From a virus, in the IMG/VR virus record IMGVR_UViG_3300046167_000162, positions 1 through 54,256 of that record: 54,256 nt of DNA; one strand, written 5' to 3'. Positions within the stretch are counted from its first letter, which is position 1. The number at the start of each line of letters is the position of its first letter. A model generated the notes under the pieces. The model was not told where the DNA came from. It saw nothing but the letters and a program-made list of their open reading frames with translations, and searched no databases. The position numbers and the translations under genes were made by a program. This document shows, piece after piece, positions 11,669-31,767 of this stretch.

Positions 11669-11696
11669 GTTATATGCAGGTAAAAGTGTTTGTCAA
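11669..11696 (-). promoter_or_regulatory. Sigma70-type promoter for coat protein
   Basis: On the minus strand TTGACA (11696-11691) and TATAAC (11674-11669) are separated by 16 bases. It lies immediately after the scaffold stop codon and faces the coat gene. The hexamers are 6/6 and 5/6 matches to consensus, and the spacer equals that of two other promoters in the window. Confidence 0.75.
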
Positions 11697-19115: not shown

Positions 19116-20705
19116 TTAGTATCCAAACGTTGTGTCTGATGCCTGAAAGCCTGTACGCTGCGAGTCAGAGTTATAATCAAACAGATTACTTCTAGGTCTT
19201 GTCATGATACCATACCTTAGAGCGTCATAGATGTGGTCTTCTGACTTAGTGTCTACGTCCTCGGGGTTATTCTTGTCTAAGGGTAGAGAGGGTAACTGAG
19301 CAATTGTGTTGTAGCAGTTACTGAAGAAGACTATTCTTGGTTCTTCTGTGAAGTCATCTGTCTGAAGTCTTCTATGCAGTTCGTTTTTACCTGCTACACG
19401 GGAGCCCTTAGATCTGTCTGCTGGTCTCCAACGGCAACCCTTAACAATCATTTGCTCTGCTAGGCTGGGTCCAGTATCCCCTCTTTTGTGCCAGAGAGAA
19501 CTATCAAGAACACCATACCTTATTTTCTCTTCAGACTCAACCTCTAAAATCATATCAGCTAAGTCTGTTGCTAGTACCTTGCTTACGTACATCTCCCTGT
19601 ACACGATCAACTGCTCGTCAGGTGATACAGCAAACCATAGAACAGCACTGTAAGATCCGTAACCGTAGTCAGCTGCTCTGAACCTAGGCCAGTTGTGAGG
19701 AATCTCGAAAGGCTCTACAACGTGTGCTCTACGGTTAAATTCAGGAAAAGCTGCTCCCTCGTTAATGTCCCAGTCCCCTTCCAACAACTGACGCCGTTGG
19801 TGCTCAGGCAAAGAGAGAAGGTTGGCTTCGTACATCCCGTCATCAGACAGGTAAGGATTATCAAACAAAGTCGCAGGGATAAACTTTCTTTTAAAGAGAG
19901 GCTCACCTGACCGACTATGCCCACTGGGCCAACAAATAGTCTCACCTTCTAAGTCTGTCGCCCAAAATGCCTGATTAGGAGTATTCGGGTCAATAAAGGT
20001 TTTCTTAACCCAGTAGTGACCAGGACCACCAGGGTTACTCGTGGCTCTCATGTAGAGAGGTAACCCTGACGCCTTAGTGGTACGTAGCCTTGAGCGCATA
20101 TAGTTCCACGCATAGTCCGTAGGCCATTGAGTTAATTCATCAAATCCAATCCAGTTGAACGCTTGGCCTTGGTATCTCATAACGTCATCGTCACGGTCAA
20201 GGTAAGACATCCAGAGTGTTGCACCGCTAGGAGCTACCCAAGTCTTATCTCTCTCCATAAACTTAATACCTGGGATAGCTCTAGGATAAAGCTGTTTACT
20301 TACAGATATAAGTTCTCTTAGTTCCTCTGTACTTCTACGTACAATAAGCATTCGAGCGTTAGGGTTGTTCAAGTATCTGACTGGGTCAGCAATAAGACTA
20401 TAGCTCTTACCACCACCAGCTGCCCCACCGTACAGAACCTCTTGCTCTGTAGCCGCTAGGAAGCTTGTCTGAGGGCCAGGATTAGGCTCAAAGATAATAT
20501 CTCTCTGAACAGACTCAACATCAATCTCCTGAGGCTTCGGTATCGCTGGTGTCTGACCAACCGTCTCCAAAGATTCTTTTGGTAGCTCTACCACCAAGTC
20601 TTTGCTTTTCGATTTTCTCCGCTTTCCTTGACGCTTCTTGATACCTTTTGGCATACTTGCGATAGCTGGAGGAAGCCCGTCTGCGCTTTTCTTCGATCCT
20701 GACAC
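19116..20705 (-). CDS. terL: Terminase large subunit (ATPase-nuclease part)
   Basis: 529 residues as an open frame. Walker A GGAAGGGKS at 93-101, Walker B in NWIGFDELTQW near 187, coupling motif ATSNPGG, and the RNase-H-like nuclease with RAADYGYG and VLDSSLW..RGDTGP. It pumps DNA through the portal and cuts it. The first ~65 residues overlap the preceding gene by 185 bases in another frame, and no well-placed start codon follows that overlap. Removing one A from the four-A run at 20577-20580 joins both into one 628-residue protein, so this ORF is probably the C-terminal part of a frameshifted gene. Confidence 0.9.
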   Translation of the reverse strand: MSGSKKSADGLPPAIASMPKGIKKRQGKRRKSKSKDLVVELPKESLETVGQTPAIPKPQEIDVESVQRDIIFEPNPGPQTSFLAATEQEVLYGGAAGGGKSYSLIADPVRYLNNPNARMLIVRRSTEELRELISVSKQLYPRAIPGIKFMERDKTWVAPSGATLWMSYLDRDDDVMRYQGQAFNWIGFDELTQWPTDYAWNYMRSRLRTTKASGLPLYMRATSNPGGPGHYWVKKTFIDPNTPNQAFWATDLEGETICWPSGHSRSGEPLFKRKFIPATLFDNPYLSDDGMYEANLLSLPEHQRRQLLEGDWDINEGAAFPEFNRRAHVVEPFEIPHNWPRFRAADYGYGSYSAVLWFAVSPDEQLIVYREMYVSKVLATDLADMILEVESEEKIRYGVLDSSLWHKRGDTGPSLAEQMIVKGCRWRPADRSKGSRVAGKNELHRRLQTDDFTEEPRIVFFSNCYNTIAQLPSLPLDKNNPEDVDTKSEDHIYDALRYGIMTRPRSNLFDYNSDSQRTGFQASDTTFGY

Positions 20706-21003
20706 GTTTGTCTAACCCTACATGTGAGATATACCTACCTGATTGTTGAGTCAGCCACTTAGCTACTTGCCTTAGACTGTACTCCTGTAGGAATAGCTTT
20801 GCTTTTTCTAAAAGTTCTAATTCTTCTGGGATGGGTATGAGTAGATCTATGTCTTCTTCATCTTGTTTGTAACCAAATGGTACGTGTCTTCCAACTCTAA
20901 TGATAGGATACCACTCTCCGTTTTCTCCCCTGAGTGGTACCTGCCAGTCTACTTTAGTTGGGTAGTCTGCTTTGGATGCTCTTGCCGCCTTAACCTTAGG
21001 CAT
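20521..21003 (-). CDS. N-terminal part of terminase large subunit (frameshifted)
   Basis: 160 residues: DYPTKVDWQVPLRGENGEWYP, an acidic linker, then an HTH-like SLRQVAKWLTQQSGRYISHVGLDKRV and a basic coiled coil SSSYRKYAKRYQEASRKAEK. I recall this module as the N-terminus of long terminases in marine podoviruses, ahead of an RDIIFEPNPGPQT..LAA segment like the one in the next frame. Its last ~30 residues (after GGRATK) look unnatural, which fits a frame lost at the A run 20577-20580. It overlaps the small-terminase gene by eight bases. Alternative: a real separate small protein with an out-of-frame overlap. Confidence 0.7.
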   Translation of the reverse strand: MPKVKAARASKADYPTKVDWQVPLRGENGEWYPIIRVGRHVPFGYKQDEEDIDLLIPIPEELELLEKAKLFLQEYSLRQVAKWLTQQSGRYISHVGLDKRVRIEEKRRRASSSYRKYAKRYQEASRKAEKIEKQRLGGRATKRIFGDGWSDTSDTEASGD

Positions 21004-21361
21004 CTGTATCCTTGGAAGGTAGAATAAAGAGAGGCTCTGTTGTCTTAACCTCTACCTTCTCTGTCTTAGTAAAACCTGCTCTGTCCAAGATGTCTTTAGC
21101 TGCCATCATCTTTTCTTTAACCCCTAGATCTGTAGGGTCAGCCATCACACTGAACATTGTGTAAGCAGCTTTAGTGGAAGACCGTGAAATAAACTTTTTA
21201 GTTCTATCAACAATCTCGTCTTCAAGTGCTGAAACAATAGAGGATGTAGACATACCTTCGGAGTATCCTGCAAGCTTTCTGGCTTTAACAGGATCTCCTT
21301 TGGCTTCATCAAACAGAACGTCTAAGAACTTCTGTTGCTTCTCAGTTAGTTGCCTTGCCAT
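20996..21361 (-). CDS. terS: Terminase small subunit-like DNA-binding protein
   Basis: 121 residues. The N-terminal ARQLTEKQQKFLDVLFDEAKGDPVKARKLAGYS is the helix-turn-helix found in Terminase_2-type small subunits, followed by a helical oligomerisation part (IVDRTKKFISRSSTKAAYTMFSVM) and DLGVKEKMMAAKDILDRAG, also typical. It recognises packaging-site DNA and stimulates the large subunit. It directly precedes the large terminase and overlaps the DUF1127 gene by 20 bases. Confidence 0.82.
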   Translation of the reverse strand: MARQLTEKQQKFLDVLFDEAKGDPVKARKLAGYSEGMSTSSIVSALEDEIVDRTKKFISRSSTKAAYTMFSVMADPTDLGVKEKMMAAKDILDRAGFTKTEKVEVKTTEPLFILPSKDTDA

Positions 21362-21506
21362 ATACTGTTCGCCTTATTTCAGTACGTGAAATACCGATGT
21401 CACGTAGCTCTTTGTCTGACATGTTCTGGAGAATCCAGAAGTCTGCCCGTCTTTGTTGACCCTCTTGAATTGATCTCAGTGCGGTGTTTGCCCACTCTTT
21501 AAACAT
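21342..21506 (-). CDS. DUF1127 (YjiS-like) small regulatory protein
   Basis: 54 residues, ATG at 21506 with GGAG six bases before it. The core RADFWILQNMSDKELRDIGISRTEI matches the DUF1127 signature (L..MSD.EL.DIG..R.EI), a short Arg-rich family frequent in Alphaproteobacteria, where members bind RNA and affect sRNA turnover and phosphate or carbon metabolism. It opens the terminase transcription unit and overlaps the small terminase by 20 bases. The start region lies in a hairpin that covers its ribosome site. Role in the phage is not known; host-derived and regulatory is my inference. Confidence 0.75.
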   Translation of the reverse strand: MFKEWANTALRSIQEGQQRRADFWILQNMSDKELRDIGISRTEIRRTVYGKATN

Positions 21507-21565
21507 ATTAGTCTCCGTTTAGATTGTACAAGTAGCAGGATTAGCTACCGGAGACTAGTTATATA
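21507..21565 (-). promoter_or_regulatory. Leader hairpin hiding the DUF1127 ribosome binding site
   Basis: A perfect 9-bp inverted repeat, TAGTCTCCG (minus strand, from 21557) and CGGAGACTA (21517-21509), encloses a second stem GTAGC/GCTAC with a seven-base loop. The 3' arm contains the GGAG Shine-Dalgarno, which therefore pairs with CTCC of the 5' arm. No U run follows, so it is not a terminator. Translational control by opening of the stem is inferred. Confidence 0.65.
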
Positions 21566-21571
21566 CATATA

Positions 21572-21600
21572 GTTATATCATACCACAGACAATAATGCAA
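21572..21600 (-). promoter_or_regulatory. Possible promoter for DUF1127-terminase unit
   Basis: On the minus strand TTGCAT (21600-21595) is followed after 17 bases by TATAAC (21577-21572). The -10 is 5/6 and identical to that of the coat promoter; the -35 is weak (TTG only). Transcription would start near 21566, just before the leader hairpin. Confidence 0.4.
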
Positions 21601-21608
21601 CCCCGCTA

Positions 21609-21968
21609 TTACCCTACTGGGACGAAGGTCTCTGTTACCGTAAGGATAGTGTCGATATGCCCAGCAGAAACAGGTACGTTTTGTATCTTGTCACCAGGTT
21701 GAAGTACTAGATCGATGTCGGAAAAGGTAACGTAGTCACCTGAATTTAGACTCTTACCTGAAAGAAAGTGAGACGTGTAGTCATCAGCTGCTACATACCA
21801 CTCTACATCTACAGAGTTTGTACTGCCACCACCGTTGACTACATGGATAAACGTAACCTCAGCTACACAGTTAGCGGGGCATGTATATACAACCTCTGTA
21901 GCAGTGCCACTGTTGTGACCGTACACAGAACGCATACGTGATGGCTTGCCCTGATTAACTAAACTCAT
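21609..21968 (-). CDS. Predicted beta-sandwich virion protein
   Basis: 119 residues, nearly all beta strand: MRSVYGHNSGTATEVVYTCPANCVAEVTFIHVVNGGG...VDVEWY...SGKSLNSGDYVTF..IDLVLQPGDKIQ. The alternating pattern with the phrase LQPGDKIQ is typical of small phage decoration or tail-surface proteins. Two Cys in CPANC could form a small loop. It overlaps the next gene upstream by four bases. No enzyme motif; structural role inferred. Confidence 0.65.
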   Translation of the reverse strand: MSLVNQGKPSRMRSVYGHNSGTATEVVYTCPANCVAEVTFIHVVNGGGSTNSVDVEWYVAADDYTSHFLSGKSLNSGDYVTFSDIDLVLQPGDKIQNVPVSAGHIDTILTVTETFVPVG

Positions 21969-26023: not shown

Positions 26024-26263
26024 GAGCTAAATGCAGATAAGGGTATCCTAAATGCATAAGCCTCTGGTAGAGTCTAAAATTATATTTTACCTTTGATAGA
26101 AATAGAAGCCTACTGGTAGTACTGTTAGTTATTACTAGTAGTTCTATAAGTATTATAAGTATAAGAAGTATAAGACTGCTAGTATTAGCTAACAGTTATA
26201 ACTTATATGTATAATACTATTGGTATATACTGTTAGATACAGTAGGTATATACTATAAGTATA
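26014..26263. repeat. AT-rich repeat-bearing leader of the leftward unit
   Basis: About 250 bases with no gene. It contains TATAAGTAT-type direct repeats (26155-26185), CTACTGGTAGTA at 26110-26121, and copies of ACTGTTAGT or its complement. The same words occur in the gap at 31,140-31,260. It would form the untranslated leader of RNA from the distal leftward promoter. Confidence 0.6.
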
Positions 26264-26291
26264 ATTATATAGATACCCGCCCTTTTGTCAA
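26264..26291 (-). promoter_or_regulatory. Distal leftward promoter, perfect sigma70 consensus
   Basis: Minus-strand TTGACA (26291-26286) and TATAAT (26269-26264) separated by 16 bases. Both hexamers match consensus exactly. It should be read by host RNA polymerase at infection start and gives a ~285-base AT-rich leader before the first gene. No phage RNA polymerase gene is seen in the window, so host polymerase use is expected. Confidence 0.85.
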
Positions 26292-31690: not shown

Positions 31691-31767
31691 CCACCCTTAG
31701 CTCAACTGGATAGAGCAACTGCCTTCTAAGCAGTAGGTTGCAGGTTCGAGTCCTGCAGGGTGGGCCA
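31691..31767 (+). tRNA. tRNA-Arg (anticodon TCT), CCA encoded
   Basis: Complete cloverleaf: acceptor CCACCCT/AGGGTGG, D stem GCTC/GAGC, anticodon stem ACTGC/GCAGT with loop CTTCTAA (anticodon TCT), T stem GCAGG/CCTGC with TTCGAGT loop, discriminator G and encoded CCA. It reads AGA and AGG, codons used freely in this phage. Only one tRNA is seen in the window. Confidence 0.95.

Follow-up and report, generated by a model that had tools for sequence, protein, structure and literature searches.

A covarying leader hairpin and an embedded promoter upstream of a DUF1127 gene in HMO-2011-type roseophages, a probable timing switch of the T4 gene e type

The DUF1127 Gene and Its Genomic Setting

The DNA analyzed here, referred to as the window, is a 54-kb virus record (54,256 nucleotides) from an HMO-2011-type roseophage. 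It belongs to the group of HMO-2011-type RCA phages CRP-1 to CRP-738, and among named phages Roseobacter phage CRP-13 is the nearest to it. The features treated below are given in window coordinates.

21342–21506, minus strand: gene for a DUF1127 protein of 54 aa, matching PF06568
21509–21517, minus strand: 3' arm of the outer stem, CGGAGACTA, based on inverted repeat, fold, conservation and compensatory change
21513–21516, minus strand: Shine-Dalgarno (SD) sequence GGAG, paired within the 3' arm, with a probability of being unpaired of 0.00
21532–21548, minus strand: nested stem GTAGC/GCTAC (21548–21544/21536–21532), two of five pairs changing on both sides in close relatives
21549–21557, minus strand: 5' arm of the outer stem, TAGTCTCCG, based on inverted repeat, fold and compensatory change
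21558–21563, minus strand: putative proximal −10 box, TATAAC, immediately next to the 5' arm and placed by its spacing from the upstream element
21572–21600, minus strand: distal promoter-like sequence TTGCAT-N17-TATAAC, found in a subgroup only; its predicted transcript would retain the whole hairpin
21596–21612, minus strand: upstream element GTAATAGCGGGGTTGCA, conserved with the consensus GCATAACGGGKWTGCA and present in this genome as one good copy
26264–26291, minus strand: perfect sigma70 promoter sequence TTGACA-N16-TATAAT (12/12 match), also present in CRP-13

A preliminary description made from the sequence had assigned the 54-aa protein to DUF1127, and an HMM search agreed, with an E value of 2e-7 and 31.1 bits against the PF06568 cut-off of 23.3. 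The cut-off was exceeded in all 12 related genomes. The CRP-13 protein is 100% identical to that of the window, and its gene is left unannotated in the CRP-13 record (L045 1501–1662, corresponding to MW514247.1 49316–49477). An NCBIfam search with the protein gave no meaningful match, and a search against solved structures gave weak matches to L19, which were disregarded. The gene overlaps the start of terS (20996–21361) by 20 nt. Its place at the head of the packaging genes, as first described, applies to the window but not to CRP-1 and CRP-345, in which other genes, lysis genes included, come next. Two further observations concern the surroundings. The region 20521–21003 on the minus strand, between terS and terL, has a weak integrase-family match (phrog_95, E 4e-4), and a tRNA-Arg(TCT) lies at 31691–31767 on the plus strand, as was reported for the related phage CRP-9.

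The phage protein shares the domain, the conserved DIG motif, small size and basic character with CcaF1 of Rhodobacter, the small DUF1127 proteins of Agrobacterium and YjiS. Unlike these host proteins, it is phage-encoded and has packaging genes as neighbors. CcaF1 binds RNA (PMC10253847), an Agrobacterium DUF1127 protein interacts with PhoR (PMC12501420), and no RNA association was found for YjiS (PMC11707872). RNA-binding is not universal in the family, and with host members varying in function, RNA regulation is no more than a possible role of the phage protein. No CcsR-like RNA adjoining the phage gene was found by Rfam search.

HMO-2011, ctYwJ313 and two pelagiphage relatives have no DUF1127 gene, and the upstream element is absent from them as well, apart from one chance-like match in HMO-2011 with TATACC only. 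In cobaviruses and related roseophages (L051, L055, L058, L060) a DUF1127 gene lies immediately 3' of mazG and mostly just 5' of the gene for B12-dependent ribonucleotide reductase (RNR), and the leader hairpin is absent there; the cobavirus genes stand in a mazG-RNR operon. Searching by term, we found no mention of promoters or DUF1127 in the CRP phage papers PMC8528129, PMC9038755, and PMC6918029; our literature search found no paper connecting DUF1127 with these phages and no description of transcription control for this marine phage group.

The Leader Hairpin and Its Covariation

Both structural elements of the preliminary description were located in the leader, namely a perfect 9-bp inverted repeat with GGAG in its 3' arm (outer arms of 9 nt, 100% complementary) and the second stem nested within it. 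Folded as isolated RNA at 37°C, the leader reached −19.1 kcal/mol, whereas shuffled sequences averaged −10.9 (z −2.96), and 3 of 200 shuffles were equally good. Taken from the window sequence alone, the hairpin is moderately beyond chance; it becomes decisive once relatives are compared. Rfam covariance models at gathering score gave no match to the leader, the tRNA being the only match in the window.

The stem, which had been expected to persist in relatives keeping the gene, did so: each of the 11 CRP relatives analyzed has a hairpin with compensatory changes, those of CRP-2 and CRP-738 being the weakest, and the hairpin is found in most metagenomic leaders checked as well. As a control, each gene in 13 genomes was scored for the best helix that its SD could form with upstream sequence (the window, 11 CRP phages and one IMG/VR genome). 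In this blind scan the top three of 605 genes were all DUF1127 genes, and when the DUF1127 genes were removed none of the remaining 601 matched the SD-pairing score of the window. Among close relatives, 14 pairs were kept in 98.7% of cells, and two pairs of the inner stem are compensatory. Arm sequences diverge from clade to clade without loss of pairing, and both sides have changed at 6 of 10 positions. Cells with changes on both sides numbered 21, against 6.5 in shuffles, and the covariation score was 0.539 against 0.202, no shuffle out of 500 being as high on both measures. The arms in this alignment were paired by hand, which favors structure, and the controls were slid registers as well as shuffles; all slid registers gave far lower covariation.

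The details of the structure vary. The loop ranges from about 11 to 50 nt, and neither its sequence and length nor the arm sequences are conserved. SD pairing is weak in CRP-738; CRP-2 and CRP-603 show none and have the AUG paired in its place, while some GTATGCA-type leaders (L031, L034, L037–L039) pair just 5' of the SD and not through it. Judged from predicted structure together with covariation, the SD and/or the AUG is paired in a conserved helix, as in leaders of the T4 gene e type.

Promoter Sequences in the Leader

Alignment of the leaders placed an element CGGG[GT][AT]T 42–45 nt 5' of a TATAAY box in all CRP genomes. This box directly precedes or overlaps the 5' arm, except that in CRP-235 and CRP-738 it stands at the same spacing but past the 5' arm, in the loop. 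The sequence logo reads GCATAACGGG[GT][TA]TGCA, followed by no good −35 and then TATAAY. In a weight-matrix scan the site was ranked first in 12 of 13 genomes, with one good copy in each. Assuming that transcription starts 12 nt past the first T of the proximal box, the start would fall near 21551, inside the 5' arm, so that most of this arm would be missing from the RNA; the center of the upstream element would then lie at about −53.

The promoter of the preliminary description, TTGCAT-N17-TATAAC, is present at 21600–21572 on the minus strand, but it is confined to a subgroup in which the element reads GGGGTTGCA, and the proximal TATAAC (21563–21558) is more widely conserved. The preliminary description did not include the upstream element. 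Among the 96 distinct leaders of this GTTGCA type (GGGGTTGCA) listed, 54 have both boxes, 22 the proximal box only, 18 the distal box only, and 2 neither. Leaders of this type that lack the proximal TATAAY mostly have TAAAAC as the hexamer at that place.

Several other readings of these sequences were set aside. The upstream element is partly palindromic, and a strict dyad has weak support. A sigma54 reading of TTGCA was rejected on inspection, there being no upstream GG at the correct spacing. The T4 late promoter box TATAAATA (gp55/gp33) was not matched by the consensus, which consists of TATAAY plus the upstream element. Pairing in the lower stem does not by itself explain the conservation of TATAAC, since the box is kept also where it is unpaired or in the loop.

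Held-Out Leaders and Searches by DNA Alone

A held-out set was collected by three IMG/VR scans with diverse DUF1127 queries, which gave at least 233 usable leaders; 67 were left after redundancy above 85% identity had been removed, both among the leaders themselves and against the discovery set. The element with a −10 box at 42–45 nt was found in 66 of the 67, compared to about 5% in shuffles. In these leaders, the mean predicted openness of SD and AUG was 0.22 in the read-through RNA and 0.63 in the local RNA, and it was greater in the local RNA in 65 of 66 leaders (paired Wilcoxon test, p 2e-12, the relatives not being independent). With shuffled upstream sequence the corresponding values were 0.46 and 0.58. 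In CRP-207, truncation changed the predicted openness of the SD from 0.25 to 0.24 and that of the AUG from 0.08 to 0.64. That a local start would remove the 5' strand, as in T4, follows from the sequence and the assumed 12-nt distance between −10 box and start.

IMG/VR was also searched by DNA only, without regard to genes. The first search, with GCATAACGGGGTTGCA, returned at least 120 loci, and the second, with CATAACGGGTATGCA and TATAAC at whatever distance between 20 and 40 nt further on, 59 loci listed. A DUF1127 gene lay 3' of the element on the same strand at 179 of 179 sites among the matches listed. In the second search, the box stood 42–44 nt from CGGG in 59 of 59 matches listed. No bacterial or archaeal genome contig matched the exact element with its −10 box, and a host origin of the cassette was accordingly not found.

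Transcription from Upstream Genes

A same-strand open reading frame ends within 60 nt 5' of the site, usually within 10 nt, at 116 of 120 sites among the matches listed. In the window, the sigma70 promoter sequence at 26291–26264 faces the DUF1127 gene across a run of leftward genes and is a candidate source of a read-through transcript. The only terminator-like site on the minus strand between this promoter and the hairpin lies right behind the promoter (26196–26175), and none was found between 26175 and the hairpin. The region 26175–26291 on the minus strand, where the sigma70 promoter is succeeded about 70 nt on by a terminator-like hairpin, at the head of the leftward genes, is a possible attenuator. 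A second strong promoter sequence, TTGACA-N17-TATAAC, lies at 11696–11669 on the minus strand; its CRP-13 counterpart is flanked by gp52 and the coat protein gene, and other CRP phages have promoters like it.

A Possible Promoter-Choice Switch

In phage T4, the long early RNAs of genes e, soc, and 49 fold and are not translated, while a promoter in the 5' strand of the helix yields a short RNA which cannot fold (PMC3014915). We consider it probable that the roseophage leader is a combined promoter and RNA timing switch of the T4 gene e (lysozyme) type. Transcripts from upstream genes would contain the two arms and fold, and the SD, or the AUG in some relatives, would be hidden. On such RNA DUF1127 would remain untranslated, and TerS may also be held back in this phage because of the overlap between the two genes. 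The upstream element and the proximal TATAAY would form a local promoter, probably activator-dependent because no good −35 is present. RNA from this promoter would start within the 5' arm, the hairpin could not form, and DUF1127 would be translated. It is the conserved proximal −10 within the hairpin, together with the upstream element, which argues for a choice between promoters and not for a hairpin on every transcript. The architecture is well supported: the sequences show the hairpin and its covariation, the constant distance from element to −10, the place of the −10 beside the 5' arm or in the loop, and a gene on the same strand just upstream, from which the start site, read-through, late timing, activator and effect on translation are predicted. 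As in the T4 leaders of e, soc, 49, and I-TevI (PMC3014915), the SD and/or AUG lies in a helix whose 5' strand encodes a promoter, and any upstream transcripts would carry the full helix while local ones would lack its 5' strand. The differences from T4 are the unrelated phage group and host, the gene itself, the late timing, which we infer here, and the −10 region, where TATAAY with the upstream element GCATAACGGGKWTGCA takes the place of the T4 late box TATAAATA.

Several observations speak against a switch. The distal TATAAC, from which a transcript would retain the full hairpin, is carried by the window and by 72 of the 96 distinct GTTGCA-type leaders listed, and in 18 of the 96 the proximal site lacks a TATAAY. 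The SD of CRP-207 is predicted to be no more open after truncation. SD pairing is weak or absent in CRP-738, CRP-2, and CRP-603, and some GTATGCA-type leaders pair beside the SD. The element appears strictly tied to DUF1127, a restriction not required of a general late promoter.

The last point would suit autoregulation, the main rival, in which the hairpin is present on every transcript and the DUF1127 protein, or another host or phage factor, stabilizes or melts it. That CcaF1, a DUF1127 protein, binds RNA (PMC10253847) is in line with this, and the distal promoter of the subgroup would yield full-hairpin transcripts. However, the variable loops (about 11–50 nt) and arms offer no obvious protein-binding motif, the cobavirus DUF1127 genes in mazG-RNR operons have no such leader, and a fixed −10 beside the 5' arm or in the loop is not predicted; we regard autoregulation as unlikely, though it is the strongest of the alternatives. 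Somewhat less likely still is constitutive damping or a thermosensor, where the hairpin lowers translation or tunes it by temperature and the nearby promoter is incidental. The SD is indeed closed in most predicted read-through folds, but stem strength, length and loops vary widely while the distances separating element, −10 and arm are constrained, and the local transcripts of CRP-235 and CRP-738 would lack the 5' arm, which precedes the −10 in these two phages.

The inverted repeat could also be a protein site in DNA instead of an RNA stem, as it overlaps the promoter −10 region and has a partly palindromic element upstream. An operator of this kind is very improbable given that the arms stand at distances differing by tens of bases, that G-U pairs replace G-C pairs, that the arm sequences differ between clades, and that the helix takes in the SD or AUG in almost every clade. 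A host DUF1127 gene, duf1127_1 of S. meliloti, is controlled via its leader by uORF-dependent transcription attenuation (PMC12218461), which is a different device from the phage leader. The same mechanism has hardly any likelihood here: the leaders are short and showed neither a conserved uORF nor a terminator, the promoter element marks the point where the upstream gene stops, and pairing involves the SD directly.

Returning to the promoter-choice switch, its principle is known from T4, and what is new is this phage group and the tie to DUF1127. More tentatively, the leader may be a phage-specific cassette of widespread marine phages, in which the −10 and start region of an activator-dependent promoter recurs as an inverted copy at the ribosome site so that promoter choice decides DUF1127 translation, with a factor binding GCATAACGGGKWTGCA and DUF1127 acting as an RNA-binding late-stage regulator. 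If the switch is real, the classic T4 timing trick would also operate in a phage group that is among those dominating the ocean, and there would be a reason why roseophages retain a host-type DUF1127 gene with a regulated promoter of its own. The analysis supplies a searchable promoter element and a testable start-site prediction. Apart from the DUF1127 leaders, a 10-bp SD-sequestering helix, TTATTCTCTA/TGGAGAATAA, was observed in CRP-2 (L091) at a small gene of 88 aa, at genome position 52591 on the minus strand.
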